A DNA stretch of 64,000 nucleotides. Origin: a virus. Below are positions 13,528-48,745 of the stretch, one piece after another. Location: the IMG/VR virus record IMGVR_UViG_3300042558_001959, positions 1 through 64,000 of that record. One strand, 5' to 3'. The notes beneath the pieces are model-generated. The model was not told where the DNA came from and did no database searches. It saw only the letters and a program-made list of their open reading frames with translations. Numbering within the stretch: position 1 is the first letter of the stretch; each line of letters opens with the position of its first letter. The position numbers and the translations under genes were made by a program.

Positions 13528-13536
13528 GACTTTATT

Positions 13537-15690: not shown

Positions 15691-15696
15691 AAAAAA

Positions 15697-16023: not shown

Positions 16024-16033
16024 GGTGTAATTT

Positions 16034-17176: not shown

Positions 17177-17182
17177 TATAAT
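17174..17182 (+). promoter_or_regulatory. Extended -10 promoter candidate
   Basis: TGATATAAT matches the extended -10 consensus TGnTATAAT exactly and overlaps the stop codon of the preceding gene. It lies 36 bases before the next start codon. No good -35 hexamer is present at 16-18 bases upstream, which extended -10 promoters can tolerate. It would drive the small genes before the portal. Confidence 0.45.
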
Positions 17183-17212
17183 AATTGTTTAGAATTTTGA
17201 CGAAAGGTAAAT

Positions 17213-17404
17213 ATGGACGATTTAGATATTAACATTCTAGTTCAAACATTCAGCGAAAAAATTGGCCAGTTAACAACCGATTTGGTCATAAAAGAGGCAA
17301 CGATTAAGCAGCTGAACATCAAAGTCGCAAACTTAATCGCTGCAATGCAACCAGGTAAAACAGAAAAAACAATTAAACAAACAAAAACAGACAACTTTGA
17401 GTGA
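17213..17404 (+). CDS. Small coiled-coil protein (63 aa)
   Basis: A 63-aa protein with a heptad-like helical stretch at residues about 8-42 (hydrophobics spaced in L-T-T-D-L-V-I-K-E-A-T-I-K-Q-L) and a Lys/Thr-rich C-terminal tail. It has a reasonable ribosome-binding site (GAAAGG about 5 bases before ATG 17213). The pattern would suit a small oligomeric assembly factor or a scaffold-like peptide; there is no signal peptide or membrane segment. It stops next to the ribosome-binding site of the following small gene. I do not recognise a family. Confidence 0.6.
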   Translation: MDDLDINILVQTFSEKIGQLTTDLVIKEATIKQLNIKVANLIAAMQPGKTEKTIKQTKTDNFE

Positions 17405-17414
17405 GGTAAATAAA

Positions 17415-17624
17415 ATGTCAGAAGAAACAACTGAAATAATTGAAGAAATTCAAACAACTGAGCCAGTAGAAGCTAAGGAATTTTCAATTGAAATTAAGAT
17501 TTCAAATGCAAATCTCCAGTACAGAAGCGATTTTAATGAAGCAGAGACAATTTTTTGGATTGAAGCTGTTAAAAATATCATTATGAAAAACGCTTTTGAT
17601 AAAGCTAATCTCGACGTTAACTGA
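17415..17624 (+). CDS. Small acidic protein (69 aa)
   Basis: A 69-aa protein starting at ATG 17415, chosen over an upstream in-frame TTG at 17397 because GTGAGG lies 8-9 bases before the ATG. The N-terminal 25 residues are acidic and disordered (many E and T). The C-terminal 40 residues look folded, with S-I-E-I-K-I-S-N-A-N-L-Q-Y and an F-W-I-E-A-V-K-N helix. It is placed immediately upstream of the portal promoter region. No known family is recognised; a small head-assembly accessory protein is possible. Confidence 0.55.
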   Translation: MSEETTEIIEEIQTTEPVEAKEFSIEIKISNANLQYRSDFNEAETIFWIEAVKNIIMKNAFDKANLDVN

Positions 17625-17652
17625 TTAACTTATAAAAAAACACCACTTTAGC

Positions 17653-17658
17653 TACTAT
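17653..17658 (+). promoter_or_regulatory. -10-like TACTAT element before portal
   Basis: The 63-base gap before the portal gene holds TACTAT followed by an AT-rich stretch, 35 bases ahead of the portal ATG. The same hexamer occurs in three other long gaps of this window at similar distance from a start. No clear -35 box is seen. Confidence 0.4.
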
Positions 17659-17687
17659 TATATATAGTTTTCATATTGGAGAGATAC

Positions 17688-19346
17688 ATGGCAGTCTTTG
17701 ACTATTTGCCGTTTAGGCAAGTTGATAAAAATAATAATTTTACAGCCAAAGCACTAGATGGCGAAGAAATCAAATCAGTTAGTAGATCGATGAAAGTCGC
17801 ATCGTTAGCTCTCGGTTTTCAAGGTAATACTTATTTTTATAGCAAAAGATCTACATTCGAACCTTCTCCGTATGATTTCCATAGAATCATGCAGGCAGCT
17901 GACACCGATTCATATGTAAAGCAGGCTTTAAATAAATATAAAGAGTTATTCTGGAAAGAAAATTGGAAAATTGTAGGTGAAAATCCTGAAGCAATTTCCT
18001 ACTTATATCAAAGAATAGATTATATGGAATTGGCAATGAAGCGCCCTTTCTTAGATTTTCTAATAGAAGTCACAGATCATCTCTTTAAATATGGGAACGC
18101 ATTCATTGTTAAGGCACGTGGAGACATATCAGAATACTTTCCAAGTCCTTTAGAGGGAGTCAATGCTAGTCAGCCTGTTGTTGGTTATTACTTAATACCT
18201 ACTGAGCAAGTAAGGATTTTAAGAGATAGACACAATAGACCACAGAAGTATGAACAGAGCACAGATCCGCTGACGTATATGCCATCAGATCGTGACCCTG
18301 TATGGAGCGCAGACAAAGTCATTCATGTCTATATCGACAAGAAAACTGGCAGAGCATTTGGGACGCCATTCATAGAATCGGCCTTGGATGACATTGTCGC
18401 TCTTCGACAAATCGAAGAGGATATTCAAAACCTGGTTCATAGAGAACTATTCCCATTGTACAAGTACACCATAGGAACTGCAGATCAACCAGCAGAACCT
18501 CATGAGATAAGCACCGCTGGCCAAGAATTAGAAAATCTTAGAGCAGAAGGTGGATTGATTTTACCTTTCCGTCACAACATAGAAGTTATCGGGGCTGCCA
18601 ATACCGCACTCGATGCATCTAAGTATCTTGATCATTTTAAGGAAAGAGTATCTGTTGGATTGGGTGTTGCGCCTCATCACCTTGGTATGTCAATGGGCGG
18701 CGGTAACAGATCAATGACAGATAGATTGGATACAGCTCTTTACGACAAGGTCAAGCAATATCAAAAGCTTTTCTCTGAAATGGTAAGAGTACATTTGTTT
18801 AATGAGCTTTTACTTGAAGGTGGATTTGACCCTATGACTAATCCACTTGAAAGTGATGCGTCAGATCGTTGTTACTTTAAGTTCAACGAAATAGATGTTG
18901 ATACTCAAGTTAAAAAAGAAACTCATACTATTCAAAAGTTTACAAGTAATTTAATAGGACTGTCAGAAGCTAGAATGGAATTAGGCATGGACGCCGATCA
19001 CGATCCAAAAGATTTCTATGCAGCTATTCAATCACAAATTCAAATAAATGCGAATAAAAAACAAACAGAACTAAGTGCTTCACTGAAGTCTAAAGACGCC
19101 ACTATGAACGCCGACAAACAAGAGCCAGCACAAAAAGGTCAAACAAATCTTCCTAATAAAAGAAAAGGTGCGGGTAATGTAATTCGCCCGACTAATCAGC
19201 AGGGAAGAAGCAGCTCAGCAAATATTAGAAGATCAGATAACGCTTGGTTGACACTAGTTGAAAATGCGCTTGAATCAGAGTATACTATAGTTTATACAAA
19301 TGATGAAAAGGATGAAATCAATGTCGAACAAAATGATAATAAATAA
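17688..19346 (+). CDS. Portal protein
   Basis: A 552-aa protein of the portal family: the dodecameric ring at one capsid vertex through which DNA enters and leaves and on which the neck and tail assemble. Recognisable regions are L-F-K-Y-G-N-A-F-I-V-K-A near residue 140, the wing/stem region with Y-L-I-P-T-E-Q-V-R-I near 175, the helix-rich stretch around 220-260 with A-L-D-D-I-V-A-L-R-Q-I-E-E, and G-L-G-V-A-P-H-H-L-G-M-S-M-G-G-G around 325-340. The last about 100 residues are polar and disordered. ATG 17688 is preferred to an in-frame TTG at 17676 because GGAG lies just upstream. The end overlaps the next gene by 26 bases. Confidence 0.9.
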   Translation: MAVFDYLPFRQVDKNNNFTAKALDGEEIKSVSRSMKVASLALGFQGNTYFYSKRSTFEPSPYDFHRIMQAADTDSYVKQALNKYKELFWKENWKIVGENPEAISYLYQRIDYMELAMKRPFLDFLIEVTDHLFKYGNAFIVKARGDISEYFPSPLEGVNASQPVVGYYLIPTEQVRILRDRHNRPQKYEQSTDPLTYMPSDRDPVWSADKVIHVYIDKKTGRAFGTPFIESALDDIVALRQIEEDIQNLVHRELFPLYKYTIGTADQPAEPHEISTAGQELENLRAEGGLILPFRHNIEVIGAANTALDASKYLDHFKERVSVGLGVAPHHLGMSMGGGNRSMTDRLDTALYDKVKQYQKLFSEMVRVHLFNELLLEGGFDPMTNPLESDASDRCYFKFNEIDVDTQVKKETHTIQKFTSNLIGLSEARMELGMDADHDPKDFYAAIQSQIQINANKKQTELSASLKSKDATMNADKQEPAQKGQTNLPNKRKGAGNVIRPTNQQGRSSSANIRRSDNAWLTLVENALESEYTIVYTNDEKDEINVEQNDNK

Positions 19347-19620
19347 TGAAAAATTATCCCAATACCTAGGAACAGAAGACGCTGTTAAGGGCCTTCAAAA
19401 GGTCGTAGATAATGGTCAAACTAGATTAGCTCTTGAAGTAATTTTCGATATCATTACCCAGCTAATTGATAGAATCGATACACTTGAAGAGATTGTATCC
19501 ACTAAAGAAGATCTATCTCCTGAGCCCGCGCCTACACCCGCGCCCGCGCCCGCGCAAGAGAAACCAATTACGAAGGCAAAAGAAACTACCACTGAAATAT
19601 CAGAGGAAGAAAAGAAATAA
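19321..19620 (+). CDS. Small head protein with Pro/Ala tail
   Basis: A 99-aa protein whose ATG at 19321 lies inside the end of the portal gene, preceded by AAGGA (19308-19312) at ideal distance. Longer in-frame starts at 19300-19312 are possible but less well placed. Residues about 8-60 look helical; residues about 62-76 are a Pro-Ala repeat (P-A-P-T-P-A-P-A-P-A) encoded by a locally GC-rich CCCGCG repeat, and the end is acidic. The overlap with the portal suggests translational coupling and a stoichiometric link to it. Function unknown; a portal-associated or assembly protein is plausible. Confidence 0.6.
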   Translation: MSNKMIINNEKLSQYLGTEDAVKGLQKVVDNGQTRLALEVIFDIITQLIDRIDTLEEIVSTKEDLSPEPAPTPAPAPAQEKPITKAKETTTEISEEEKK

Positions 19621-29212: not shown

Positions 29213-29576
29213 TGTCAAGAAAACTTTCAAAAAGATTCTTAGAGAATGGGGACATAACGTTCATATTCAAAGAATACTTGCAAATGGAAATCATTATAAT
29301 CAATTCGAGTTAGTCACAACTAGGCAGGTTGGCCAATCGGGGGCCGTGAATTCTAATTCAACACAAGAATATGATGAAGGTCTTTTGACAAAATATGATG
29401 CAGTATATTATTTTGAAGACATCGTTTACCCTAAAGAGGGTGATAGAATATATGAGAATTATTCCGCCAAAGCAACAAAAAACTATACAATGTTCAAGAT
29501 TGATGCTATCACTGCAGTAAGAGGCAGACATGGTAAGATTAATTATTGGATAGTTGGCGCAACTAGAGAGAAATAA
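29205..29576 (+). CDS. Candidate head-closure (stopper) protein
   Basis: A 123-aa basic protein with a GTG start at 29205, overlapping the upstream gene by 8 bases, GAGG at 29190-29193. Size, a beta-barrel-like strand pattern (Y-Y-F-E-D-I-V-Y-P-K-E-G-D-R-I-Y-E, about residues 68-84) and position between connector and sheath fit a head-closure protein of the SPP1 gp16 / lambda FII type, which plugs the portal until the tail attaches. The internal phrase P-K-E-G-D-R-I is common in such small neck barrels. Assignment is by order and size; no diagnostic residue is known to me. Confidence 0.5.
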   Translation: MIDVKKTFKKILREWGHNVHIQRILANGNHYNQFELVTTRQVGQSGAVNSNSTQEYDEGLLTKYDAVYYFEDIVYPKEGDRIYENYSAKATKNYTMFKIDAITAVRGRHGKINYWIVGATREK

Positions 29577-29577
29577 T

Positions 29578-31173
29578 ATGTTAATAGTTAGCAGAGGTCA
29601 GTCGGTACAATTTAAATTTATATTTATTTCAGAAGGAAATATATATGACCCAACCGCCAATTCAACACCATTAGACATATATTTTTCTGTTATTAGAGGA
29701 GAGTATGGTAGCGGTCCAGTAATAGATGGTCCATATTCTTATTTAATTCAAGAAGAAAATCCTTCAGGACCTATTTATATTGAAAAAAGTAATTCTAAAG
29801 AATTTACTTTTTATTACCAAATTCCAGATAAATTATATGAGGGAATTTATTCTGTTATTGCACAAACAACTAACTCCACTGGAAATTTAAACATAAGTGC
29901 AAAGTTTCAAGTTAAAGGTGAAGTATCGACTTTAAGTCCAATAGTTATTTCCCCAAATAAAAGTACCGTAGTAAACTATAAGCCAAGTTATGAACAGTTA
30001 AACTCAAATAATACTAGTACGATTTTATTAATTGGCCACGCAAATGGAATGGAATTTAATAACCCCGTTAATGTTAGGTCAATGCAAAGTGCTATTGATC
30101 TTCTTGGGGCAGATCTTTCCAGCCCCCTGCTAAGAGGTGTATTTGATGCATACGCTGCAGGAGCTAGGGATATTATGATTTGCGCAACAGCTCCCATGTC
30201 TGAATATGTGGATAAATATTCTGACAGAAATATTTCCAATACTCTATTTGACAGAAACGCCGCCACACCCAGTGAATATACTTTTTATGAAAAATATTAT
30301 GAAAGATTAGAAGAAACATATTCAATAATTAAAGATTTAGATTTTATTGATATTATTGTTCCACTAGAAACTTCCATTATTAAAACAGGTGGAGTTGATT
30401 TTATAACCCAGTTAGCTGATTATTGCGCTGATTTCCACAACACTACTGGCTATGTCCAAATTGGAATAATAGGATCAAGAAGTGGTGGCGTTACATCTCC
30501 AGATATTGATTTATTAGAGGCAAATTCTGTCCTAACTGATAAATTAACTACAATAAATATGACTGGTCAAATTTCTTCTGATAATGGAAGATTTGTCATT
30601 CCAGTATATGGTGAAGCTGTATACCAGCACGATCAAATAAAAACATCTTACGTTTCGTCCATAGCAGCATCGCTAGCGGGAATGTTCGCCTCAAGACCAC
30701 TAAATATGGGTCTCATTAGAACAAGAATACCAGGAGCAATGTCATTGTATGGATCAGACTTATCCCAATCTGAATATCAAAGATTAGATGACATAGGAGT
30801 CAATACTATATATAGAGGAAAAAAGACTAGAAGATCTGTTCCATTTGAAGTCTATTTAACCAATGAGTATACCCTTTCTGATCCAGAATCCACCCTGCAC
30901 AAAGCGGCACAAATGAGACTCGTAGCTCTTCTAGTAAGCAGAATCAGAGGATATGGGTACAAAGCTATCGGTCAACTAGGATACGATAAGGTAGTAGACG
31001 ATGTAAGATCTTTATTAGAATCTTTAAAAAGCGATAAAATTATAGTTAGTTATTCTTTTAACGTAGAAGTAAGTAGTACCACTGTTGGAAGTATAATATT
31101 CTACATAGAAGTTCTTTCTGCCCTAGGGTTAAAGAAAATTGACTTTGCCTTATCAACAGGACCAGGAGTTTAA
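29578..31173 (+). CDS. Tail sheath-like protein with N-terminal Ig-like domain
   Basis: A 531-aa protein from ATG 29578, 1 base after the previous stop. Residues 1-115 are an immunoglobulin-like extension. Residues about 125-531 show a contractile sheath pattern: T-I-L-L-I-G-H-A-N-G near 145, a domain with L-R-G-V-F-D-A-Y-A-A-G-A-R-D-I-M-I-C near 190, A-S-L-A-G-M-F-A-S-R-P near 370 and a C-terminal V-S-Y-S-F-N-V-E-V plus strands as in sheath handshake regions. A second sheath gene, shorter and much more strongly codon-biased, follows at 32185, so this one is probably a minor sheath-like neck or terminal component. Confidence 0.7.
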   Translation: MLIVSRGQSVQFKFIFISEGNIYDPTANSTPLDIYFSVIRGEYGSGPVIDGPYSYLIQEENPSGPIYIEKSNSKEFTFYYQIPDKLYEGIYSVIAQTTNSTGNLNISAKFQVKGEVSTLSPIVISPNKSTVVNYKPSYEQLNSNNTSTILLIGHANGMEFNNPVNVRSMQSAIDLLGADLSSPLLRGVFDAYAAGARDIMICATAPMSEYVDKYSDRNISNTLFDRNAATPSEYTFYEKYYERLEETYSIIKDLDFIDIIVPLETSIIKTGGVDFITQLADYCADFHNTTGYVQIGIIGSRSGGVTSPDIDLLEANSVLTDKLTTINMTGQISSDNGRFVIPVYGEAVYQHDQIKTSYVSSIAASLAGMFASRPLNMGLIRTRIPGAMSLYGSDLSQSEYQRLDDIGVNTIYRGKKTRRSVPFEVYLTNEYTLSDPESTLHKAAQMRLVALLVSRIRGYGYKAIGQLGYDKVVDDVRSLLESLKSDKIIVSYSFNVEVSSTTVGSIIFYIEVLSALGLKKIDFALSTGPGV

Positions 31174-31174
31174 T

Positions 31175-32071
31175 ATGGCATATATAAATAGAGGCTTTCC
31201 TTCTCACGGAAGAAAAAGTAGATTTACTGAACCAATTTGGGCTAGTCAACTAAAAGATTCAGTACTCCAATCTCCAGGCTACCGAAGACTGGATGAGAAT
31301 GGCGTAGAAGAAATATATTCTGGCAATCTAAGTTATCTCGAATTTATAGGTTTAGTTAAAAAAATATGGGAAGAAAGTTATCCTACGATACCCATTCTTC
31401 CTAGTGGTATCAATAGAGAGACTAGTAGTACCTATTCTGATACAATGACATCTAGCACTCAAGTTAGTGAAATATCTTCTGCGCCAGCGTCATCAAGTTC
31501 TGGATTAACAGCTTTAGAAGAATTTCCAGCAATTATTGTTTATTCTTTGGAATTAAGAAAAACTCATACTACAGAGCCAAAGCCTAGAATGAGACAAAAT
31601 GTATTGGAAAATACTGTAACAGTATATGGTCAAAAATTTCAAAATATAGTTTCATTTTCAGTTCTCACAAAAGTGGGAACATTCCAAAATGATAATATTA
31701 CAACAACTAGAGACGATCTCGATGCATCGGTGCTGGCCGATCAAGTTATAGAAGCTTTTGAAGATTTTATGTTGGAATATACTCCAGTCTTCAAAGCTTC
31801 TGGCGCTTCGGAGTTAGTGTATTCTAGAAGACTTTCCGATTCTGAAATAAATAGAGATGGAAAAGACCTGCATAAAAGAACTGTAACCTATATGTTAACT
31901 ACAGAAAAAACATTTGCAATTAAGAATGAAAGAATCCAGAAGATCGCAGTGGATGCAAGAACTTGGATGGCATATGAAAGAAGTATCGTTGAATCATTAG
32001 CGACACCAAATTTTGAAGATGTCACTATAAATATAGTTGACTTACAACAATCTGCCAGCCCAAATTACTAG
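31175..32071 (+). CDS. Candidate tail terminator/tail-completion protein
   Basis: A 298-aa protein from ATG 31175 with AGGAG 6 bases upstream. The N-terminal 60 residues are basic, residues about 80-110 a Ser/Thr-rich linker, and residues about 112-298 a folded domain with F-P-A-I-I-V-Y-S-L-E-L-R-K, V-Y-G-Q-K-F-Q-N-I-V-S-F and a long helix. Position between the two sheath genes fits a tail-completion or tail-terminator protein that caps tube and sheath. It is followed by a 113-base gap with a promoter-like element. Function is inferred from synteny; I cannot name the family with certainty. Confidence 0.5.
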   Translation: MAYINRGFPSHGRKSRFTEPIWASQLKDSVLQSPGYRRLDENGVEEIYSGNLSYLEFIGLVKKIWEESYPTIPILPSGINRETSSTYSDTMTSSTQVSEISSAPASSSSGLTALEEFPAIIVYSLELRKTHTTEPKPRMRQNVLENTVTVYGQKFQNIVSFSVLTKVGTFQNDNITTTRDDLDASVLADQVIEAFEDFMLEYTPVFKASGASELVYSRRLSDSEINRDGKDLHKRTVTYMLTTEKTFAIKNERIQKIAVDARTWMAYERSIVESLATPNFEDVTINIVDLQQSASPNY

Positions 32072-32130
32072 TCAAACCTATATATTTATCTTCAGATAAA
32101 ATGTTTGTGAAGTTGTTTTTATAACTTGTC

Positions 32131-32139
32131 TGTTACTAT
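32131..32139 (+). promoter_or_regulatory. Extended -10 promoter candidate before the sheath
   Basis: TGTTACTAT (TGnTACTAT) sits 51 bases before the sheath ATG, with a TTGTTT about 15 bases upstream as a poor -35. It shares the TACTAT hexamer with three other gaps and would drive the sheath-tube unit. Confidence 0.5.
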
Positions 32140-32184
32140 AAATGAAGATTCTAAAAGATTCCTAATCGGAGGTCTAAAAATAAT

Positions 32185-33459
32185 ATGGCTATACCTGGAG
32201 TAACAACCTTAATAAGAGATCGTTTTTACAGTGTGTCGAGACAAGACGCACCTGTTGGTCCGAGAATTGTAACCATTGCAAAGCGCAGCACTGCTGACGG
32301 CACTGGTGGAGTTCCCGACCTTGACATAGTTAGAGTATCAAACGAAGCTGATGCAATTACCGCATTTGGCAACGGATCAGATGCACACCGCGCATTTGTG
32401 GAGTTGGTCACCGCTGGCGCTGAAAGAATTTTCGTTGTTCCGCTTCCAAGCGATACAATATTCGATCATTCACTCTGCACAGTAACAAGTTCAACCTTTG
32501 GTGGATCTGTTTTTGATGCAGCTTTTGTTGCAGCAGAATCAGCAGTCCCGGATATTATCATCCCTTGGGGCCGTGGCTCAGATCCGAATGACTGGTCGCT
32601 GAATGCAACTGCCACGCCTAGCGATGACAGAGAATTTGGTTTCCACGCCGACAACAATACCGCCTATGCAACAAACTGGGCCTATAAGGTTGCAGTTAAG
32701 GCTAAGGAAATTTCAGAAAGCACAAACCCTTGCATAGCCGTTATGGGCGTTAAGCCTTTCTTGGTAAGTCAAGCTGAAGGCGGAGCTGCTACTTACGAAA
32801 GAATGACTCCAAGTCAAATAGCAACTAAAATTAACTTGTCTGGATTGCCAGACAGAGATTCTGGAGATGCATGGAAGACAGTCGGACCGTACGTCACCAT
32901 TATCGCCACTGAGATCAAGCCAGTTAACTATTCATCAGGAACAACACAATTTGGCTATTCAAATGGTGCAGCCTTTTTGGCAGCTTCAATGAGTAGACTT
33001 CCTTCATATAGTTCAGTAGTTAACAAGCCACTTTACAACGTTGAGGCTCTTCGTTATGCTCCAACAAGAACTCAGCAGCAAGCTTTGAGTACAAAGGGCA
33101 TCAATACTGTTGTTCTTAATTTTAATAAAGTAGCAGTTTTTGGTGAAGGCTTGACATTCGGCCAGTCAACATCAGATTACACGCGTTTGTCAACAAAGAG
33201 AATTGTTGACGAAGCTTCTCTTGTCATTAGACAAGTTTGCCAGAAGTTTATTGGTGAGCCATCAAATATTCAAGTTCGTAATGCGATGGAAACAGCAATT
33301 ACTTCTGGTCTAAGAGGAATGCAGCTCATGGGTGCTTTATTGGGAAGCGATTTTACAGTTTCGTATGTTCCCAACCAAAATAAAGCGATTGTTGACCTCG
33401 TTTTAACACCTGCCTTCGAACTTAAAACAATCGAAGTCCAGGTAGCCATTAACTTATAA
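32185..33459 (+). CDS. Major tail sheath protein
   Basis: A 424-aa contractile sheath subunit. It starts M-A-I-P-G-V-T-T-L-I-R-D-R, as sheath proteins often do, has N-E-A-D-A-I-T-A-F-G near residue 55 and A-F-V-E-L-V-T-A-G-A-E-R-I-F-V-V near 74-89, and ends in the usual C-terminal domain (about 330-424) with an I-R-Q-V-C-Q-K-F-I-G-E-P helix and final strand E-V-Q-V-A-I-N-L. CGGAGGT precedes the start by 12 bases. C/G-rich codons and its own promoter-like element suggest it is the abundant sheath; contraction drives the tube through the envelope. Confidence 0.9.
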   Translation: MAIPGVTTLIRDRFYSVSRQDAPVGPRIVTIAKRSTADGTGGVPDLDIVRVSNEADAITAFGNGSDAHRAFVELVTAGAERIFVVPLPSDTIFDHSLCTVTSSTFGGSVFDAAFVAAESAVPDIIIPWGRGSDPNDWSLNATATPSDDREFGFHADNNTAYATNWAYKVAVKAKEISESTNPCIAVMGVKPFLVSQAEGGAATYERMTPSQIATKINLSGLPDRDSGDAWKTVGPYVTIIATEIKPVNYSSGTTQFGYSNGAAFLAASMSRLPSYSSVVNKPLYNVEALRYAPTRTQQQALSTKGINTVVLNFNKVAVFGEGLTFGQSTSDYTRLSTKRIVDEASLVIRQVCQKFIGEPSNIQVRNAMETAITSGLRGMQLMGALLGSDFTVSYVPNQNKAIVDLVLTPAFELKTIEVQVAINL

Positions 33460-33484
33460 TATACCGATTGGAGGGTAATTCAAA

Positions 33485-34162
33485 ATGGCAACTGAAGATT
33501 ATACATCAGTAAATAAATACCTAAATACCTACACCACCTTCTCAGGTGCAGACATTGTAGCCACTTTTGGTGGAATTGAAATTGGTGCTCTTTCGGGCAT
33601 TACTTTCTCTGTCACTAGAGAAAAAGCTCCCATTTACACAATGGGTTCACCTAATCCTCGTTCTTTTTCAAGAGGAAAAAGAGGTATTGCAGGCTCATTA
33701 ATTTTCACAGTTTTTGATCGCCCAGCGTTGTATACAATGTTGGACAAGAACCGTGCGAATGGTGATCCGACACAGGTTTTCTACACAAGAAGTCATAACG
33801 CACTTCCTGGCGATACATCTTACAAATATCGCGGAATAGCCGATGTCAATGATCAGGCGCTCAGTGTTGTAAAGAAAGTTCCTTACTACGCTGACCAGAT
33901 TCCTCCTTTTGATATCACTATCACATTTGTAAACGAGTATGGCCAATCTGCCGTTAGATCGATCTATGGTTGCGAACTTTTGAACGAAGGTTCAGGCGCT
34001 TCAATGGATGACATCGTCATTGAAGAAACAATGACTTATGTTGCTCGTGAACTCGGCCCGATGTACACAATCAAAACAGATGGTCTCATTGATAATATGG
34101 ACGTTGATGCTCTTGACTTTATTCAGTCAAACGCTCTTAAGTCAGATATTATCAGACCCTAA
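33485..34162 (+). CDS. Tail tube protein 1 (major)
   Basis: A 225-aa protein directly after the sheath, where the tube gene is expected. It shares with the next two proteins a core of G-A-D-I-V-A-T, S-F-S-R-G-K-R-G-I-A-G-S-L-I-F-T-V-F (about residues 59-78), P-P-F-D-I-T-I-T-F-V-N-E-Y-G-Q-S-A (about 139-155) and a final E-E-T-M-T-Y-V-A-R-E-L-G. The tube forms the channel for DNA and is pushed out on contraction. A strong GGAGG and C/G-rich codons suggest this is the abundant copy. A hairpin follows the gene. Confidence 0.85.
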   Translation: MATEDYTSVNKYLNTYTTFSGADIVATFGGIEIGALSGITFSVTREKAPIYTMGSPNPRSFSRGKRGIAGSLIFTVFDRPALYTMLDKNRANGDPTQVFYTRSHNALPGDTSYKYRGIADVNDQALSVVKKVPYYADQIPPFDITITFVNEYGQSAVRSIYGCELLNEGSGASMDDIVIEETMTYVARELGPMYTIKTDGLIDNMDVDALDFIQSNALKSDIIRP

Positions 34163-34187
34163 TAGAAACTACTTTAGGTTGACAGGT

Positions 34188-34214
34188 GTGCACGGGGGAT
34201 CTTCCTCCGTGCAC
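34188..34214 (+). terminator. Hairpin after the tube gene, probable terminator or attenuator
   Basis: A 12-bp GC-rich stem with one G-U pair (34188-34199 with 34203-34214) closes a 3-base loop. Only ATTTCATT follows, so the T-run is weak. It may stop or trim transcription, lowering expression of the next tube paralogues relative to sheath and tube. Confidence 0.6.
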
Positions 34215-34238
34215 ATTTCATTATAAGGACAAGGAACA

Positions 34239-34973
34239 ATGACAGAACTTTTTACTGGAAGACCAAAAATTATTGTTGAACCGCCACAGGACACCGAACC
34301 TCGTGGGACCTACAATCCAAACACCGGTCTTCAGAATATATCATTCTCAGGAGCAGATGCCGTAGCAACAATGATTATCCCAGTTATAGGTGAAGACGGA
34401 AAAATCACTAATGATGGTGACGTTATCGAATTGGGCGAACTGCAAACATTGTCGTATTCAATACATAGAGAAAATTCTCCCGTTAGAACTCTTGGGCACG
34501 TAAATGTAAGAGGCTTCATTAAAGGTGGAAGAACAATAGCTGGAAGCTTAATATTTACCGTTTTTAATGAGTATGCATTTTATAAAATTAAAAAATATAG
34601 AGAACTTCTAGCCAGAAGAAACGGCTTCTTCGCTCCACTGGCGGACATGCTTCCACCATTTGATATAGTAATTTCTTTCTTCAATGAGTATGGCCAATCT
34701 GCAAAAATGAAGATCTTTGGTATTACTATAGTAGATGAAGGTCAAACAGTATCAATTGAGGACATAATTACAGAACAGACTTACACCTATATGGCTCGTG
34801 GCATTCAACCTATGGTGAAAATGGATATTAGTTCTGAAATAGACTCAACGAAAGATCCAGCAGTAACCCAAAGAGATGTGCAAATATCTAGAAATATATT
34901 TGGTGACGAAGCTGTAGATAAAATATCTGAATTTTATAATCAAAATATGGTAGAACGTATCATCCCAATATGA
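34239..34973 (+). CDS. Tail tube paralogue 2
   Basis: A 244-aa paralogue of the preceding tube protein: G-A-D-A-V-A-T, F-I-K-G-G-R-T-I-A-G-S-L-I-F-T-V-F (about residues 88-104), P-P-F-D-I-V-I-S-F-F-N-E-Y-G-Q-S-A (about 145-161) and I-T-E-Q-T-Y-T-Y-M-A-R-G. It has a longer N-terminus, an insertion before strand 2 with E-D-G-K-I-T-N-D-G-D, and about 35 extra C-terminal residues. Codon use is AT-rich, unlike the first tube gene, so it is probably made in fewer copies: perhaps a tube initiator, a tube end ring or a baseplate-proximal layer. AAGGA precedes the ATG. Confidence 0.75.
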   Translation: MTELFTGRPKIIVEPPQDTEPRGTYNPNTGLQNISFSGADAVATMIIPVIGEDGKITNDGDVIELGELQTLSYSIHRENSPVRTLGHVNVRGFIKGGRTIAGSLIFTVFNEYAFYKIKKYRELLARRNGFFAPLADMLPPFDIVISFFNEYGQSAKMKIFGITIVDEGQTVSIEDIITEQTYTYMARGIQPMVKMDISSEIDSTKDPAVTQRDVQISRNIFGDEAVDKISEFYNQNMVERIIPI

Positions 34974-35002
34974 TAGAAAACATCGTTAGATAGCAGGTAA
35001 TA

Positions 35003-35968
35003 ATGTCGGAATCAAGATTAGATAATAAAAAGTTTTGGAAATTTGATAAAGAATACGATCCTTTATCAAATCATATAGATAGAGTCTACGCAGGTAGAGC
35101 ACCAGACACTGACAAAACTTTTAATAATTATTATGATTACTACTTCAGTGGAGAAGATGTAAGAGTTTACATTGATGGTCTTTTTGGCCCGGAAGATGAA
35201 TTAGATATTGCTTCCTTTTCCTATTCCGTTAGGCAGGAAAAGCAACCTGTTTACGGATTCTGGTCATATAATTATGATACTGTCATGCTTGGTTCAAGAA
35301 TCATTAGTGGTGAAATAAGCATATTTACCAGGTATCCGCGCAGAATGACAGAGCTTCTAGAAAAAGCAGCAAAATCTCGAGTGATGAATAAAGATGTTAG
35401 GACACCAAAAGACACAATTGTTTCACGATTAGATTCACAACTTTCTTCAAGCGATGAAAGTAATATAGAAAAATTTTGGGCCTATAGTCAATTGGATAGA
35501 ATAACTTCTGACCCGGCAGTTTCTGGATATGACACTACCAATATATTCAGCGCCCATCCACCATTCAATTTTGTTATCTTGTACGGACTAGAAGAAACAG
35601 CATTAAGTCCATTTAGTGCTAATACTTCTGAAGATACAAGTACTTCTAGTTATTTAAACAATCAAATGTCTTTTGACGTTAATCAAAGAACTATTAAAAT
35701 GGACAATAAAGTAAGTCCAATGAAAACAATACTTCAGCAAGTTAATCTAATGAATATGTCAACAACCTATAGCCCAGGAGGAATGGCAATTGGTGAAAGT
35801 TACCAATTCATAGCTAGAGATTATTATTTTACTGAAGCAAAGCTTGATTTTATAAAAGGAATGTCTGCAAATAATACTTCAGATTCTGATGCGCCATCTA
35901 ATATTGATCCTGATTCAACAACATTTGATCAGTTGTTGCGAGATCCAAGTACTAGCTGGAGCTTTTAA
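35003..35968 (+). CDS. Tail tube paralogue 3, diverged
   Basis: A 321-aa protein with the same general plan as the two tube proteins but much diverged: residues about 50-110 carry G-E-D-V-R-V-Y-I-D-G-L-F-G, S-Y-S-V-R-Q-E-K-Q-P-V-Y-G and S-R-I-I-S-G-E-I-S-I-F-T-R-Y, and residues about 187-200 P-P-F-N-F-V-I-L-Y-G-L. A 50-residue insertion rich in Ser and Asp separates strands and the C-terminus is acidic. It may be a tube-baseplate adaptor or tube tip ring. The start follows CAGGT. The pairing with sheath, tube and chaperone genes keeps it in the tail unit. Confidence 0.65.
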   Translation: MSESRLDNKKFWKFDKEYDPLSNHIDRVYAGRAPDTDKTFNNYYDYYFSGEDVRVYIDGLFGPEDELDIASFSYSVRQEKQPVYGFWSYNYDTVMLGSRIISGEISIFTRYPRRMTELLEKAAKSRVMNKDVRTPKDTIVSRLDSQLSSSDESNIEKFWAYSQLDRITSDPAVSGYDTTNIFSAHPPFNFVILYGLEETALSPFSANTSEDTSTSSYLNNQMSFDVNQRTIKMDNKVSPMKTILQQVNLMNMSTTYSPGGMAIGESYQFIARDYYFTEAKLDFIKGMSANNTSDSDAPSNIDPDSTTFDQLLRDPSTSWSF

Positions 35969-43200: not shown

Positions 43201-43877
43201 GTGAAAGATTTATACCGAAGCAAAGAAAAAAAGAATTAGCATTAGAAGAATATTCGGACATCTTAAATTATGTAAAAAATAAAAGATTAGAAACTATGGC
43301 TAAATCTTCAGGGGATGAAAAAGCAGCATTAGACTATGGGATGGCTGCAAAAAGAACAATGTATGGTGCGGATCTTTATGGTAAAGACATTGATACATTA
43401 TCTCTATCTATTCCAAAAAGAAAAAGAGAACACTTTAAAGCCATGCTTAATGCTCCAGAAGGAGAAAGGGGCAGGATACTCTCTACTGCAGGACGTCTAG
43501 AGAGAAGAATATATGAAGCATCATGGGGTATGAATGTTGAACAAAGACCAGATCTCGACGATTATTTTACACGGCATGAACTACCGGATGCGTCATGGGA
43601 AGGATGGCACCCCAACACAAACTTAGAACAAGTAAAAATTAAAACAGGAGAATCTATGGGTATAGAAATGTCTCAAATGGGATATTTCCCTCAGCAGATT
43701 CGTGAAGCAAATTTAGCTAATCCTAGTTATCCCCAATTTGGGAAAAGCAGCGATGGAAATAGCACTCTTGATAAATTGCGCCAACTGATGAATGGATTTG
43801 GATTTTCCGGAAGTGTTACTCCAGTTATGAATCCTTTTGGCTCACAGGGCATTGACGTTTCGGCGGGAGTTAGATAA
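37239..43877 (+). CDS. Giant tail protein in tape-measure position (2212 aa)
   Basis: The first giant gene after the chaperones, where the tape measure protein is expected. A TTG start at 37239 is supported by AGGGAG 5 bases upstream. It has a hydrophobic N-terminal helix (about residues 44-65), a block W-Y-N-P-A-D-V-I near 220, another membrane-like segment (about 229-250), long helical stretches, a Trp/Tyr/Pro-rich block around 1411-1490 (Y-Y-R-P-S-W-Y-R-K-L and L-R-P-L-D-P-Y), a Gly/Ser/Pro linker (about 1554-1605) and a glycine-rich hydrophobic segment (about 1942-1985). No lysozyme or peptidase motif is recognised. It may set tail length, be ejected to form a membrane channel, or both. 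It ends overlapping the next start by 1 base. Confidence 0.65.
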   Translation: MIRDPGPIQNLGYGVTSRDLPINEGESEGTASNSGMISRALNGHPIMKFFASTATVMVASGVASKVTKRGGLKLAKFLQTSSDNGKPLATKMVKSAVEIRRHLDELQGVSRYVEGESDVYSKLVYERQGQLTTGYDGIVSERHGYQYLTKEEKNLAGSNFLGNEPPAVWQYRDELQQRLVRAGRRMPYELPAMYGAQKAIVDPIFGEREEGQRKIKWYNPADVIADFTKSSLTMMATMIAPFEGAGAALGAGKSSLNTLRYSMNDMRNLTPFNKKLRQGFVDVTETLADVGHDFATMTNKFLKSSAQTSGALSTATKAYTQNQQGFVQNLQSLRHGVKAARDAEIAQGASRQAINKAGANAFFKGFKDASGETSASITELPSAFRGLRKAFVAGKEEYKNLGRGYDALENSIAHARVLKSMGGTPQAAQTLESAMHKIQSQHSSRLSSFARGVRIMGGGGPGNESLPRSNFAYNQQTDAFKDLLQDQLISRGLDGKQAKQFTDYLKVRLPRSNMESTNIITIGKTKIYEEGADAASLSEDFFSRVIQRYKGVSGGKTFEDAIQPNALKNSVEDARDIFASKEFQKGLNNKIEKNWNKFYRDDLTTIGGGILKPMKANYNDFTGPQTAAKTEFLQRKTAQTLGINLTDSTGRQVSNDIVTAGLRKRGFDPNQFTDLRAFLIKNRQMTSGVSGGGHNLFGLKSLTIDEARQSGRFSHMSEPEQKIIHDLASRMAINDPVSKSIGFSKMDGVYQSRSGQILDFTSVKSTFSKTANFFASEFKIPILGFNPADLFGYRSFSEMANRSPLQYVSSRSVQPFMPEGASTKSDFHMWFKTKGSKGKLMAFDTDNVSETIHSSLMSGTYRALPTNTTDLLTRHTRFAANMQGQTINEIRDSSGSKFLDRILGGERALRFKKKMSIDPEQPNSLFGLASRFKNRSTDLSNNGVMARLLSGDDLKYNSGGKERLIKIDKQTSGGLRVVDDLGNVVDDFSEADLLRGMHSLSKESLRYGTPVKVMKELETLNPGLFTFGGRTASSIETAEDAVKFADDLLAAQKLVSQQLRRQGVDPTMLNASSSRIRNLKDSTNLNAMSQMAEKSPTITTKLDQLKNEIFRYISQSNQMQAGSSGNIFIEMQTVVDKLIKSGAISSSERVEAQAAALSTMFNMSAFKTFKHSAGNLENARAGAVEMFELSRSNNGSLKSMFDPFAKSEMSKISTGIRKKFSPLVSLKQKALGTSGYQADDLAVDPLGSGQSITVVPTFGTVFGRDPMGAIKSAIGLTTYSDPQSFSTASIPVSQGVERLNRYFGTLGMQLNVSDFKGPLDLFATGMVGKRVLPMYAAGVTALTVDRTMGGMVNEKDDRGERVYSPLVLGQVAKGAMELQSLSAGLTPGGMTYDEKKEQLVEGEVPIRQGRFWPLGNTPFKGGKIQYYRPSWYRKLQAGAMFTSDTYGSPAEKFLFYNDISPLRPLDPYRFERKHYEDRPYPVSGEYFTGPFGPLVPLANMTVGKLLKPQVLMHEDETAQGLANYTNAGQSGAYDASAYGMTSSYIDGVGFTRDMAGGPPGMPLTGSGAMTARPGSPIGSSGATGISGVNSMLASRAGSTGAAGSMVRSSLKDVNSQYSDLAYGPPKVSGVMAPRIVGAGAPLEPSTSSFQAGELGFRMQEMAGIYGFGFGNLRKSLGFGQQDYQPQRSVLQSASKAYGSTRAFWDLNLGGLGDAPLGNREGLGNLEFSEIVRRFIPKERTGVDYINPIENTMGKQYPFLPGSEYFTDFTRGDPYTKVQEGELRLPGVGYERFNRLNPDSTGSYGALDQLKILGDVAPYSQQYKTLDKKIDSMDLGPAERNKVADIRSQVESMATKNEFTDYKYKGSSAEEMGQHPLKFGAGRIGEYIAHSDNFAINKTIGKRTATEDWERKHVYGATFPEWQRPYDSYIKPMIDKSTQRDPITAATGLGIAGSLFGRTAKAKLLGTAVGVTTGLAASTYGQASELITGERFIPKQRKKELALEEYSDILNYVKNKRLETMAKSSGDEKAALDYGMAAKRTMYGADLYGKDIDTLSLSIPKRKREHFKAMLNAPEGERGRILSTAGRLERRIYEASWGMNVEQRPDLDDYFTRHELPDASWEGWHPNTNLEQVKIKTGESMGIEMSQMGYFPQQIREANLANPSYPQFGKSSDGNSTLDKLRQLMNGFGFSGSVTPVMNPFGSQGIDVSAGVR

Positions 43878-46800
43878 TGGTAGATATTAATAGAATGTAC
43901 GACACCCTTCCAGAGAGAATGGCTGCCGCAAGATCTGCTTTGATGAGAACGTCTTATGGCATGGGTAATGCTATAAAGATAGAACCTGATGGAGATGAAA
44001 TAAAATTCGTCTTGAGTGCTACTGGTGAATCATTCAAATCTATCGACAGAGCCTTTGCTCGAGCAGGTACACTAAGAATTTCTCAATTTAACAATTTAGA
44101 CAGTAAACCAGGACAGTCAAGATTAGGCAGTAAAGTAAGTGGTATGGCTGAAATAATGGCTGACGTAAAAAGCAAATCACAGACATTCTCAGCGAGCCAA
44201 ATCAAATTACTGCAAGATGCCGGAATTGACGTAAGTTCAATAAAAGATATGCAGGTAGATTTGTTAACTCTCCATGAAGACAAAGGTGGAGTTAAAAATA
44301 TTGCTATGGAGATAGACAAACTGAGAAAACGTGGTTCGCTGCAGGGGATAACTGTTATTGATGATGAAAGCGCAAGATTGATAACCATGAGAGCTGGAGG
44401 TAACATGCTAACTAGTTATCAGTCCAATCTACTCTTATCCGTGACAGGTCATGATATGTTGGATCCAGGGGTAATGTCCGAGAAGGTTCTTAGCAAGAAT
44501 CCAAATAAACTTAGATCTGGAAGACTAGTCGACCATTTGTTGAAAATACCCAAAAGATTTAGGTCATTAGCCTCTGAAAGAGAAGTATCTTTAGCAGGTG
44601 GTGATTTAGAAAACTTTGTTGGGAAAAGAGGAAGTTCTACTTTTAGCGCGTCCATATTTGTGCCAGATCCTCAGTATGAGTTATTGAAAAAAATGACCTA
44701 TCAAGGAACTGATAAAACAAAAGCTTTTGGAAACACCATGAGAGGTAAGGAGTTAGCGGCTTATTATAAGAACGTAGATGCAGAAGATTTTGTTGGAAGC
44801 ATACTGAACCAATTTACTAAAAAGCAAAGAACAGAATTTGAAAATGTTATACGTTCCGCAGACTTTGCATACAAAGAAACAAATAAAACTGGCAAGTTTG
44901 CTAGTGATCAGTTAATGAAACATTTAGAAACAAATTTTATTAATGGAGACAAAAAACGAGCAAGTCTTGTAAAACAATTATTTGACAATATCGAATTTGC
45001 GTACGACGGATCTGATTTGATGAATGCGAAAAAGATCTCTGGATATACCGACACAACGATGCGCAAAGAAATAAATGTTCTGAAAAACAAATTAAAAAAT
45101 GCGCAGCAAGGTTTAGGTAAACCTCTCTCTTCTCAGGAGATGGAAGATCTAGCAATAAGAATAAAGCAGTTGGAAAATATTAAAGGACAGACTTCTAGGG
45201 CTCAAGCTACTGGAGGACTTGACCAGTTCACCATCAGAGGCCACGCTGCTAAATACGGAGATTTGAAAACAGCTGGTCAAGCAGTAGAATTCGACAAGCA
45301 ATTAGAAAAATATACAATGATTGCCAGTAAATTTGCATTTAAGCCAGAATTAGGTTTTGCAGGAAAAACTGATATATTAACTTTAAGCGGAATGGGCTCA
45401 GGGCGCGAGTTAGTGTATTCGGATCCAGTATCGGCTGCCTTTCATCCGGAAGTTTTTGCTGATCGAGCAACACTGGACGCAATGGAACAAAGAGGCCAAA
45501 GTGTTCTTCGAGAATTCGAAAGCGCAATCAACAGTGGCACAGTGCCCCGTAAGGTAAGGGCGATGCTAGAAGAAGCATCACAGCGCGATATAAGTCATCT
45601 CCCATCACATTCACGTCTTTCTGCGGTGAGAAATAAAGAATTTGCTAATTCCATATTAGACATGATGAGGAGTGGCGTTAGTCCAAAGCAAAATCCAACA
45701 ATGATGAACATGATGCACACCTTCTTTGCAACAGAGGCATTTAGAATGAAGGGCGACTTCATGCAAATGGTTGTTCCTGACACTCATCGTTTTGCAATTG
45801 ACAGTGAAGCAATTTTAATGGGAACCGAAAAAGGAAAGATGATTCTGAATAAAGGCAGGGGATATGATCGTATATCGATAGAGGGTTTAGGCGATGTAAA
45901 ACACGACATATTAAAGTTTAGAGTTAGTGGCCATAAAATGATGTTGCCGGCTGACTCTATTGGTAAATACAGACATGCTCTTGGTGGATTCGACTTAGAC
46001 GACAAGGTGTTAGAAAAAGTTTTAACATATAAAGATAATCAAGGATTAACTCGATTAGGGTTCAACATTAGTCGTCAGCCATCTGGCCCGGAAGAATTAA
46101 TATTTGCTAGAATGAATATGGATCAAGATACTATTAGGGGTCTATTTGGGGGTAGGGAAGATTCTTCTTCAGTTATGGAATTTAGAAAATCCTTAGACTC
46201 TTTAACACAATCAACTAGCAATACAGCCCATAAAAAAACGTACAGAATTCTTCAAGACATACTAGATGGTAAACATACTGACCAAACAACTGTTAAAGGA
46301 CAAATTGTCAAAAAAGACAAAACACTATCCTTAAATCATATAGATGATTTTGAACAAGCTATAGTAAATGTTTTTGGAGATTTAGAAGCACGTGGAGTAA
46401 CTACAATACAAAAATTAGACATAAAAAGAGCGGAAAAAATAAAAAGATATGGGTCTTCTACATTGAGTGTCAAAGATTTAAGCAAACGACCAGATTATAC
46501 TAGAGAAGGAATATTTAAAGCTTTTATAGAATCAGGTTCTTTTGACATGAAGGATGATTTCCTGGAAACAATGAGAGCAAACAATTTTGATCAAAAAATG
46601 ATAAATAAATTTTCAAAAGCCGCAGATTTTGAAGAAATGCTAAAGATGATGGAATCCACCTATGAGACAGACCCGGCTCTGCGGGCAATTTTTCAGACAG
46701 CAATAGATGATTTTAGTGTCAAAAAAGCTATTGAAGGTGGAGATATTCTTGGAGTGTACGTCAATAGATCGATGACAGTTGGCAGTGTATTGAATCAATA

Positions 46801-48745
46801 TGAAGCATTCTTAAATGATGCAGGTACCTCTAAAGCAACCAAAGAGTACATGCTGAAAAACTATAAGATTGGCCTACTAGCACAGGACGAGGCAATTGAC
46901 GCCTCCGTTGGTGTAAGTTTTGCCTCCTCGAGGAATCTATCTCAAAATGTAGGAAGCCTTCTATCTTCAGCTGATAATGCTAATTATATGAAAGATGTAG
47001 GAGTTCAAAAAGCGCTAGTAAAATTAGGACTGTCTGGAGCAGATTTAGGGCTTGACGTTTTTGGTGAACAAAGCATCGAGGGACTAGGAAAAATGATTGG
47101 CTTCTCGCGCGCAGTTGGCTCCTCTGACGATAGTCTTCTATTAGGTATTGATGAGTTTCTACTGAAAGATAGAATTAGAGACACAGACACAAAATCTATA
47201 TTAGACAATATGATTACAGGTATGGAAGACGCTCAAAGGCAAGGGCTTGCAACAGCTGTTGATTTAGACAAAACATTAAAAGAATTAAAAGATATATCCG
47301 CTTCTAATGATGCAAGTAAGATTAAAGAGGAATTAATAAAAAGAATTGGCCTAAACGCAGACCACTCATTTGCATCAATATCCAGGGTGCATGACGTAGG
47401 CGTTCGATATTCTTCATATCTTGATTCTGTGAACAGGTCCTCAATATCTAGGATTCCATCTGACGACATTTTATCTTCAACACGAACTTCTAGGGAAGCT
47501 GATTCAGTTGCTCGATCAATTATTGCTACCCATAAGGATGAGCTAGATAGGATATTCAATACGACCACAGATAGCATTAAGACAATGAATCAAACTGAAT
47601 TATTTAATCACTCTGCACTTTTGGATAATATAGGCGAAAAGGTACTAAGAGATATAGGTCAAGCTTCTCAATTAGTCGGAATGTCATCAGTAGATTTAGT
47701 AAATGCAATAGATAAAGTAACAGCTGGAACTAGAGTTGATATTGGAGGCTTAAGACATTTAACGTCGCTGCAAGCAGGAGAGCTACCAGAGGACGCGGAA
47801 AGGGCAGCTAAAGCAATACAAGATGTTAGAACGTACAGAAGAGTAAAACATTATGAATCTTTTGATCAAGATTACGCCAATCAAGTCAGAGCTAGCCTCG
47901 GAAATAAAGGCACTATGGAGGACTTGGAAATAGAAGCTAAAAAAAGACTAAAGTCCGTGAAAGAAGCCCAGCAAAGAATAGATGACGGCACGAACACAAT
48001 GCTCGATATCTTCGAAACAACTAACGAACAAAATGATGTTTTTAGAGCTTTACTAGGTCAGTCAGATGAAATTGCTGACGATTTGGTACGAGGAAACGCT
48101 AATCATCAGGTAGCATTAATAAGAGCTCAAATGCAAAAAGATGAACTAGCGCAAGCTGGATTAATAAATATTGATCCATCGACAGGCCTAATAGATGATG
48201 TAACACCAGGGACCCTAGGAACAGCTGGTGTATTAGATGCTGATGCTGCCAGAACAGCATTTGGAGATGATGGACTAGCTGATAATATCATTAATTCAAT
48301 TACAGACCTAGACGATGGACTCGTAGAGAACAAAGCAGTATATAAAAGAATAGGCGAAAAAATGGGAGATCTTAAAGATCTTTTCAAAAATCCTACTATC
48401 AAGAAAGGCGCCCTGGCAATTGGAGGCTTAATAGCAGGAAGCTTGGCCTATTCAGAGATCAGGGATAGGACTCACGAAGATATGGCTGGCCCCCCACTAC
48501 TTCCAGGCGGATCCGCCTATGAAAGCGGTTATCCAAATCGAGTTCCACAAATTGGCACCTTTGGAGGACCAGGTTATGATCCTGGCGTCAGTTACAAAGT
48601 AAACTTATATGGAGACCAAGACACCGTCGGAAGATTTAATGCTGCTGCAGGAGGGTTAGTTAATGGCAATATCAACACTACTATGTATAATAGAATCCCC
48701 AATGTAGCCCAGGATCCATATGCGGAAATGGCAGCCAATTATTAA
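43877..48745 (+). CDS. Giant virion protein with RNA polymerase-like barrel motifs (hypothesis)
   Basis: A 1622-aa protein starting at ATG 43877, overlapping the previous stop by 1 base. Most of it is unrecognised and helical. One region stands out: F-T-I-R-(x5)-Y-G-D-L-K near residues 451-464 with K464 and K485, then V-V-P-D-T-H-R-F-A-I-D (632-642) and L-G-G-F-D-L-D-D-K (702-710). The order resembles the two-barrel core of QDE-1/YonO-type RNA polymerases, in which one barrel supplies lysines and the other P-x-x-H-R and D-x-D-G-D. Here the metal motif is D-L-D-D-K, so it differs at the final Asp. A hydrophobic helix (about 1511-1527) and an about 95-residue polar tail end the protein. It could equally be an uncharacterised tail or ejection protein. 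Confidence 0.55.
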   Translation: MVDINRMYDTLPERMAAARSALMRTSYGMGNAIKIEPDGDEIKFVLSATGESFKSIDRAFARAGTLRISQFNNLDSKPGQSRLGSKVSGMAEIMADVKSKSQTFSASQIKLLQDAGIDVSSIKDMQVDLLTLHEDKGGVKNIAMEIDKLRKRGSLQGITVIDDESARLITMRAGGNMLTSYQSNLLLSVTGHDMLDPGVMSEKVLSKNPNKLRSGRLVDHLLKIPKRFRSLASEREVSLAGGDLENFVGKRGSSTFSASIFVPDPQYELLKKMTYQGTDKTKAFGNTMRGKELAAYYKNVDAEDFVGSILNQFTKKQRTEFENVIRSADFAYKETNKTGKFASDQLMKHLETNFINGDKKRASLVKQLFDNIEFAYDGSDLMNAKKISGYTDTTMRKEINVLKNKLKNAQQGLGKPLSSQEMEDLAIRIKQLENIKGQTSRAQATGGLDQFTIRGHAAKYGDLKTAGQAVEFDKQLEKYTMIASKFAFKPELGFAGKTDILTLSGMGSGRELVYSDPVSAAFHPEVFADRATLDAMEQRGQSVLREFESAINSGTVPRKVRAMLEEASQRDISHLPSHSRLSAVRNKEFANSILDMMRSGVSPKQNPTMMNMMHTFFATEAFRMKGDFMQMVVPDTHRFAIDSEAILMGTEKGKMILNKGRGYDRISIEGLGDVKHDILKFRVSGHKMMLPADSIGKYRHALGGFDLDDKVLEKVLTYKDNQGLTRLGFNISRQPSGPEELIFARMNMDQDTIRGLFGGREDSSSVMEFRKSLDSLTQSTSNTAHKKTYRILQDILDGKHTDQTTVKGQIVKKDKTLSLNHIDDFEQAIVNVFGDLEARGVTTIQKLDIKRAEKIKRYGSSTLSVKDLSKRPDYTREGIFKAFIESGSFDMKDDFLETMRANNFDQKMINKFSKAADFEEMLKMMESTYETDPALRAIFQTAIDDFSVKKAIEGGDILGVYVNRSMTVGSVLNQYEAFLNDAGTSKATKEYMLKNYKIGLLAQDEAIDASVGVSFASSRNLSQNVGSLLSSADNANYMKDVGVQKALVKLGLSGADLGLDVFGEQSIEGLGKMIGFSRAVGSSDDSLLLGIDEFLLKDRIRDTDTKSILDNMITGMEDAQRQGLATAVDLDKTLKELKDISASNDASKIKEELIKRIGLNADHSFASISRVHDVGVRYSSYLDSVNRSSISRIPSDDILSSTRTSREADSVARSIIATHKDELDRIFNTTTDSIKTMNQTELFNHSALLDNIGEKVLRDIGQASQLVGMSSVDLVNAIDKVTAGTRVDIGGLRHLTSLQAGELPEDAERAAKAIQDVRTYRRVKHYESFDQDYANQVRASLGNKGTMEDLEIEAKKRLKSVKEAQQRIDDGTNTMLDIFETTNEQNDVFRALLGQSDEIADDLVRGNANHQVALIRAQMQKDELAQAGLINIDPSTGLIDDVTPGTLGTAGVLDADAARTAFGDDGLADNIINSITDLDDGLVENKAVYKRIGEKMGDLKDLFKNPTIKKGALAIGGLIAGSLAYSEIRDRTHEDMAGPPLLPGGSAYESGYPNRVPQIGTFGGPGYDPGVSYKVNLYGDQDTVGRFNAAAGGLVNGNINTTMYNRIPNVAQDPYAEMAANY

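Follow-up and report, generated by a model that had tools for sequence, protein, structure and literature searches.

Known two-barrel polymerases and the P0001 protein

YonO and gp66 of crAss-like phages carry the D-x-D-x-D triad, and the cellular QDE-1/RDR2 family has the motifs LGxISN and AVDxxK. YonO and gp66 are described as single chains with two barrels (PMC7824862, PMC10770324), and YonO-like enzymes have been named in 0305phi8-36 and c-st (PMC7824862). The two barrels of Neurospora crassa QDE-1, DPBB1 and DPBB2, are placed at residues 690-792 and 916-1018, and its active-site residues are K743, K767, D1007, D1009, and D1011 (PMC1750930). The closest precedent in the literature found is the tape measure protein of Thermus phage P23-45. 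This protein, gp96, is reported as a 5002-aa tape measure with an N-terminal polymerase carrying DFDGD, and the fused virion polymerase is proposed to act during DNA entry (PMC10770324).

The protein analyzed here, P0001, resembles gp96 in being a predicted two-barrel polymerase within a giant phage tail-module protein, but it is only 1622 aa long, has DLDDK instead of DFDGD, and its activity is putative. It probably represents a virion protein of the tail module that is homologous to single-chain RNA polymerases with two barrels. No description of P0001-type proteins was found in the openly licensed literature.

Gene and genomic context

The window, that is, the whole 64-kb stretch of DNA analyzed, belongs to a record of an uncultured virus of 101,980 bases. 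It contains a myovirus structural block with genes for the large terminase, portal, major head protein, and two tail sheath proteins. The P0001 gene is placed between the tail sheath and tube-position genes on one side and a baseplate-type giant on the other (Table 1). Its start codon overlaps the stop codon of the P0003 gene (junction TAATG), and one small protein is encoded between P0001 and the baseplate giant, whose last 2465 aa match phages KLEB27-3 and MTATph1 in tblastn. The ORF given in an earlier sequence-only reading of this DNA was present, together with its four motifs, FTIR (from residue 451), YGDLK (460-464), VVPDTHRFAID (from residue 632), and LGGFDLDDK (from residue 702), each found once in the protein.

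In the region 29554-35968, the two tail sheath genes are accompanied by three paralogues matching phrog_9206 (named major head protein); we read these as occupying the tail tube position. Besides phrog_20474, which is named endolysin, the baseplate giant matched phrog_8809; part of its sequence close to the end looks, by eye, like a staphylococcal-nuclease motif.

Table 1. Features of P0001 and its neighbors, in nucleotide positions of the window
Feature	Position	Strand	Evidence or remark
P0003, 2212-aa companion, syntenic marker directly upstream of P0001	37239..43877	+	relatives in MTATph1, KLEB27-3
P0001, 1622-aa two-barrel polymerase-like tail-module protein	43877..48745	+	ORF (ATG), relatives, AlphaFold of residues 1-1170
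First barrel strands (predicted), lysine-bearing, residues 451-504	45227..45388	+	model secondary structure
K464, first invariant lysine	45266..45268	+	65/65 rows
K489, second invariant lysine	45341..45343	+	65/65 rows
Second barrel (predicted), residues 622-746	45740..46114	+	strand-strand-strand-helix-D loop-strand order
R638, strand before presumed catalytic loop	45788..45790	+	65/66 rows
D706-L-D708-D709-K710, variant metal-binding loop (putative)	45992..46006	+	D706, D708, D709 67/67 each
R733-Q-P735, conserved motif after loop	46073..46081	+	R733, P735 67/67; Q734 64/67
L958-G-x-Y-x-N963, possible bridge-helix region (inferred)	46748..46765	+	G959 59/59, N963 53/55
A-I-D1008, possible trigger-loop region (inferred)	46892..46900	+	D1008 54/54
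Conserved C-terminal tail, about residues 1485-1622, GPPLLPGGSAYE	48329..48742	+	columns 1538-1549 invariant or nearly so in 30 rows
3728-aa baseplate-type giant, second syntenic marker, downstream of P0001	49211..60397	+	phrog_20474 at 3.2e-117

Relatives of P0001

Searches of 50,697 phage records with P0001 (tblastn) and of its core DNA (blastn) gave no matches. PHROGs and Pfam contained no meaningful family match for P0001, and the cellular RdRP family PF05183 did not match it at E up to 1. When 30 family members were compared with Pfam, no polymerase, PF05183 included, was among the 25 of 52 families listed, and no polymerase was found among PDB sequences by phmmer or by a profile search with the P0001 family. 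A pattern scan of genome contigs matched 247 stretches, none of which was confirmed.

Relatives were reached through the upstream neighbor. P0003 had relatives in the phage collection in MTATph1, KLEB27-3, and, weakly, ME3, and a search of viral contigs with a profile of its C-terminus brought up 214 relatives. Eighty of these were kept; a further related-locus search kept 80 of 155. Among 80 loci, 79 chosen by a P0003-type neighbor and one (L004) included as a P0001 relative, the downstream ORF carried [GS][GT][FY]D-x-D-D at 76. The four loci without the motif (L013, L031, L032, and L040) had only 312-795 aa there, and three of them run off the contig. P0001 is one member of a large family of proteins encoded in tail modules, which has no name so far.

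An early alignment consisted only of long motif-bearing ORFs (or L062 and L086), and its conservation figures were biased and not used. After a 95 percent cut, 33 of its 51 sequences were kept and served as the source of the later family profile. Two checks involved no selection for the motif at the point of choice, namely the 80 loci taken by gene position and the hits of the family profile; since this profile was itself built from motif-bearing sequences, counting by gene position gives the cleaner figure. The profile hits formed 88 non-redundant fragments at 90 percent. From these, most rows of a 70-row alignment (A6) were picked by hand, omitting short pieces and the near-identical L002; P0001 of the window and L069 were added, and two loci contributed two rows each. 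Identity to P0001 in this alignment ranged from 18 to 83 percent and was only 18-39 percent in 66 of the 69 rows of relatives. The core alignment used 63 of the 64 core rows listed.

Predicted fold

AlphaFold modeled residues 1-1170, with the family alignment, at a mean pLDDT of 87.0 and pTM of 0.87, and the 326-residue core (residues 440-765) alone at a pLDDT of 85.8 and pTM of 0.79. In the second barrel, a strand with R638 (636-643) is followed by strands 678-684 and 687-690, a helix (692-702), the D loop, and strand 710-719. The catalytic barrel of the beta-prime subunit has the same order of elements. From the structural alignment of the core described below, a pair of double-psi beta barrels is predicted in this single chain.

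Foldseek gave no significant match in PDB to the long model, although QDE-1 came first (E 0.85); for the core, the best E was 1.2, and no polymerase was among the 50 matches listed. Among predicted viral proteins, it found three at E up to 0.001, all uncharacterized and from uncultured Caudovirales. With a second structural aligner, ranks 1-7 for the core were all QDE-1 or RDR2 (208-225 residues, rmsd 4.0-5.9, Z 5.8-5.0), while rank 8 was an unrelated protein (Z 4.1, 65 residues). With the long model as query, the 50 matches listed included nine QDE-1/RDR2 entries aligned over 459-514 residues (Z 4.8-6.5), the remaining ones covering at most 111 residues; rank 1 was one of these shorter alignments, to an unrelated protein (Z 6.6, 57 residues). 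All these values are middling, and the aligner warns that Z below 8 may reflect a common arrangement; the structural case rests on agreement with the residue pattern.

The alignment of the core to N. crassa QDE-1 starts at residues 726-729 and ends at 1019-1026, given as aligned ranges rather than residue pairs. The range 726-1026 takes in most of DPBB1, all of DPBB2, and the active-site residues K743, K767, D1007, D1009, and D1011. The two-barrel polymerase fold that the sequence-only reading had suspected is supported by the core model, with QDE-1, one of the three comparisons it named, as a match; the other two, YonO and crAss-like gp66, were absent among the structural and sequence matches listed. 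The structure of P23-45 gp96 was likewise absent from the matches listed by Foldseek and the second aligner for both models. QDE-1/RDR2 are the best structural matches of the predicted P0001 core, across most of both barrels, and have a similar lysine spacing. Unlike these cellular proteins with DLDGD, P0001 has DLDDK, is encoded by a phage tail gene, and shows no detectable sequence similarity to them. P0001 is very likely a homologue of two-barrel polymerases.

Conservation of the putative active-site residues

In 5,000 shuffles of P0001, D.D[GD][DK] occurred in 1,337, and the loose ordered whole pattern in 15. Bare motifs were too common in the shuffles, and conservation was therefore used as the test, counting only rows of the 70-row alignment with a residue at the column. 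By this measure, part of the motif pattern is raised far above chance.

The acidic residues of D-L-D-D-K, on whose conservation the sequence-only reading had made itself depend, were kept in every row (Table 1), and K464 and R638, which it had also named, were conserved. Other parts of its pattern did not hold: within the supposed F-x-I-R element, F451 was found in 4/65 and I453 in 9/65 rows (R454 in 63/64), K485, one of the further lysines it had listed, in 16/65, and H637 in 4/66. The predicted first barrel has two conserved basic residues, K464 and K489. They are 25 residues apart, compared with 24 for K743 and K767 of QDE-1.

Across all family-profile hits, redundant ones kept, K464, K489, D706, D708, and D709 were each present in 199/199 sequences and R638 in 185/190. 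Position 710 was K in 62, S in 3, D in 1, and E in 1 of 67 rows of the 70-row alignment, and K in 182, E in 9, S in 8, D in 1, and H in 1 of the 201 profile hits. Over 206 loci with a match, some of them on the same contig, the loop read DLDDK at 162, DFDDK at 16, DLDDE at 9, DLDDS at 8, DMDDK at 2, and DHDDD and DLDDH at one each; at the other 7, no such loop was present in any ORF of at least 300 aa. What is new is the metal site itself, which in the sequence has D-x-D-D-K in place of D-x-D-x-D. The guess that metal binding is perhaps altered was right as far as the sequence goes.

Conservation continued beyond the loop. E740 (67/67) and D1092 (53/53) were invariant in the 70-row alignment, and the LGxYxN and AID motifs recall LGxISN and AVDxxK of the QDE-1/RDR2 family. 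In 10/54 rows, but not in P0001, a lysine occurs close to the possible trigger-loop position. When P0001 was compared with three relatives, the stretch 440-765 had diverged less at the amino-acid level than the flanking parts (1-439 and 766-1170) in every pair; in one pair, the C-terminal part, 1171-1622, had changed less still. Taken together, prediction and conservation make the assignment to the two-barrel homologues well supported.

Syntenic proteins in other phages

In Bacillus phage KLEB27-3, the place before the baseplate giant is occupied by gp034 (L006:8124-15428), annotated as a structural protein, which contains NRYPTI...ADYDGD. Its residues 1877-1944, with the motif inside, touch Pfam RNA_pol_Rpb1_2 with an E of 0.015, which falls short of the curated threshold. 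The syntenic sample comprised 18 ORFs of 17 records, hand-picked, with KLEB27-3 added and further records taken from the KLEB27-3-side scan. Omitted from it were repeats (L096 and L098), records with the ORF cut off (L093, L100, and L104), and L105, L109, and L111, in which the first downstream ORF has 1236-1242 aa and no catalytic motif; MTATph1 stands outside this count, with transposon genes at this position. R-x-P followed by D-x-D-x-D was found in 14 of the 17 records, as D-x-D-G-D in 13 and as D-I-D-A-D in one (L097). L114 contains DYDGD, and L094 and L110 have neither R-x-P nor D-x-D-x-D.

When a profile of 12 syntenic proteins was searched against PDB sequences, the six matches with E up to 1 were all RNA polymerase subunits (best E 0.035), and PF00623 touched 4 of the 12 (best E 0.0056). 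Like the KLEB27-3 gp034 type, P0001 lies between a P0003-type protein and the baseplate giant and has a similar C-terminal tail. Unlike P0001, the gp034 type has R-x-P...D-x-D-G-D, an extra N-terminal part, and, as a rule, 2300-3300 aa. With hhalign, the P0001 family gave no core match to gp034 or to a 15-row syntenic set (the 18 ORFs minus the two of L110 and the one of L114), and its C-terminal tail matched that of the KLEB27-3-type proteins weakly, at a probability of 4-5 percent. Since the cores have no detectable sequence similarity, the argument for shared ancestry comes from gene position and fold and, weakly, from the C-terminal tail. A circular permutation of the second barrel was considered, since R-Q-P follows the loop in P0001 and R-x-P precedes it in the D-x-D-G-D proteins. 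Used as a query in viral contigs, gp034 gave no matches, and no paper on KLEB27-3 or MTATph1 was found in the openly licensed literature.

In gp034 and its relatives among L090-L116, the catalytic motif occurs in proteins annotated as structural or unannotated. Conserved acidic residues near the N-terminus of gp034-type proteins recall a DnaQ-type exonuclease, and the counterpart in Moorella phage MTATph1 has an RNase_T match at 5.4e-5. In this phage, a transposase gene and an IstB-like gene of IS21 type (L007:12960-15202) occupy the place where the polymerase core is expected, the exonuclease-domain part being left upstream of the transposon genes and the tail part downstream.

In 0305phi8-36, orf146, the gene before the hub, is assigned as the tape measure, and the polymerase gene described in the same source, orf99, is a separate one (PMC2147016). 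L094 is probably this phage: its ORF at 11965-19578, the probable gp146, lacks R-x-P...D-x-D-x-D, and a transglycosylase, as reported for gp147, is weakly matched by the ORF that follows (E 0.0068). P0001 is like gp146 in being long, in its place before a hub-type gene, and in its conserved last residues, but differs from the L094 protein, which has no intact catalytic motif.

Possible activity and alternative explanations

Because the D-x-D-x-D triad was not found, P0001 is not filed as an ordinary two-barrel member, though it may work like one. Residue invariance, the models, the QDE-1/RDR2 ranks, D-x-D-x-D in syntenic proteins, the lysine spacing, and the low divergence of the core favor a polymerase. 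The altered triad, middling Z, the lack of Foldseek significance and of core profile similarity to the syntenic proteins, and the absence of a lysine at the possible trigger-loop position count against it. In plant RDR2, G833E or glycine instead of D834 in DLDGD is reported to cause loss of function (PMC8713982), so D-x-D-D-K may be dead. The invariant D-x-D-D and both lysines speak for a working site, while RDR2 genetics and the structural scores speak against certainty. Going by these sequence features, we lean towards a catalytically active P0001. It is an evenly balanced proposition that the family forms a widespread group of virion RNA polymerases in phages with a re-spaced triad, D-x-D-D, where cellular and known viral two-barrel RNA polymerases have D-x-D-x-D.

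The main rival is an inactive metal-binding tail protein. P0001 would then be a former virion polymerase that now serves as a structural protein, as a tape measure, or as a pore protein that is ejected, its aspartates binding only a structural metal. Consistent with this, the fifth triad position is not always D but varies among K, S, E, H, and D, and 0305phi8-36 is described with a tape measure at the same gene position and a polymerase gene elsewhere (PMC2147016), its probable record L094 lacking the motif there. However, K464, K489, D706, D708, and D709 are invariant among relatives of 18-39 percent identity, which is how active sites behave, and, to judge from L094, the sequence of the site is not kept once the site is lost. 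We consider such an inactive protein rather unlikely. A two-barrel nucleotidyl transferase with another job, such as synthesis of primers, RNA-templated synthesis, or DNA synthesis during entry, would fit the closest folds, which are those of RNA-templated QDE-1/RDR2, and the reported use of both RNA and DNA templates by QDE-1 (PMC2950127), but all six PDB matches of the syntenic-protein profile are RNA polymerases, and this explanation is very improbable. An ordinary giant tail protein with coincidental motifs, although compatible with the middling Z and the lack of meaningful Pfam or PHROGs matches and of a sequence-profile link to known polymerases, is hardly credible, as conservation falls on the predicted active-site residues, the two-barrel matches stand apart from unrelated ones, and syntenic proteins carry D-x-D-x-D.

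As an active virion polymerase, P0001 would be carried in the particle, ejected with the DNA, and could start transcription of the first phage genes, as the P23-45 proposal and the gene position suggest. Metal A may be held by D706, D708, and a shifted D709, replacing D-x-D-x-D, and the first barrel would supply K464 and K489. A second polymerase was looked for in possibly fragmentary records: PF00623 was found in none of 10 (control 14/14), PF05183 in none of 4, where the control gave no signal anywhere either, and the A8 profile, run with no positive control, in none of 7.

The P0001 family adds a large unannotated group of tail-module polymerase homologues and represents a natural experiment in which the metal site of two-barrel polymerases has been altered. 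If it is active, the triad of these enzymes can be re-spaced; if it is dead, a polymerase became a tail part, and the fact that its active-site residues are still fixed would call for a separate explanation. With the KLEB27-3-type D-x-D-G-D proteins, a virion polymerase is testable at once in a cultured phage.

Interrupted reading frames in relatives

Some relatives have a broken reading frame. In L038 (13739-13800), and at the same place in L039, L048, and L233, an in-frame TGA is located just after the second barrel, and the remainder continues in the +1 frame in these four distinct sequences. The break is possibly a programmed +1 frameshift or a split gene; L045 and L051, related to the L038 group, are uninterrupted. 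The idea that all ORF breaks are true gene splits was rejected, since several look like frameshifts. In L076 (13300-13345), stop and start codons one base apart separate parts of 610 and 364 aa; the former matches the profile to about the first barrel and the latter holds the second barrel, a split that resembles the division between beta and beta-prime.
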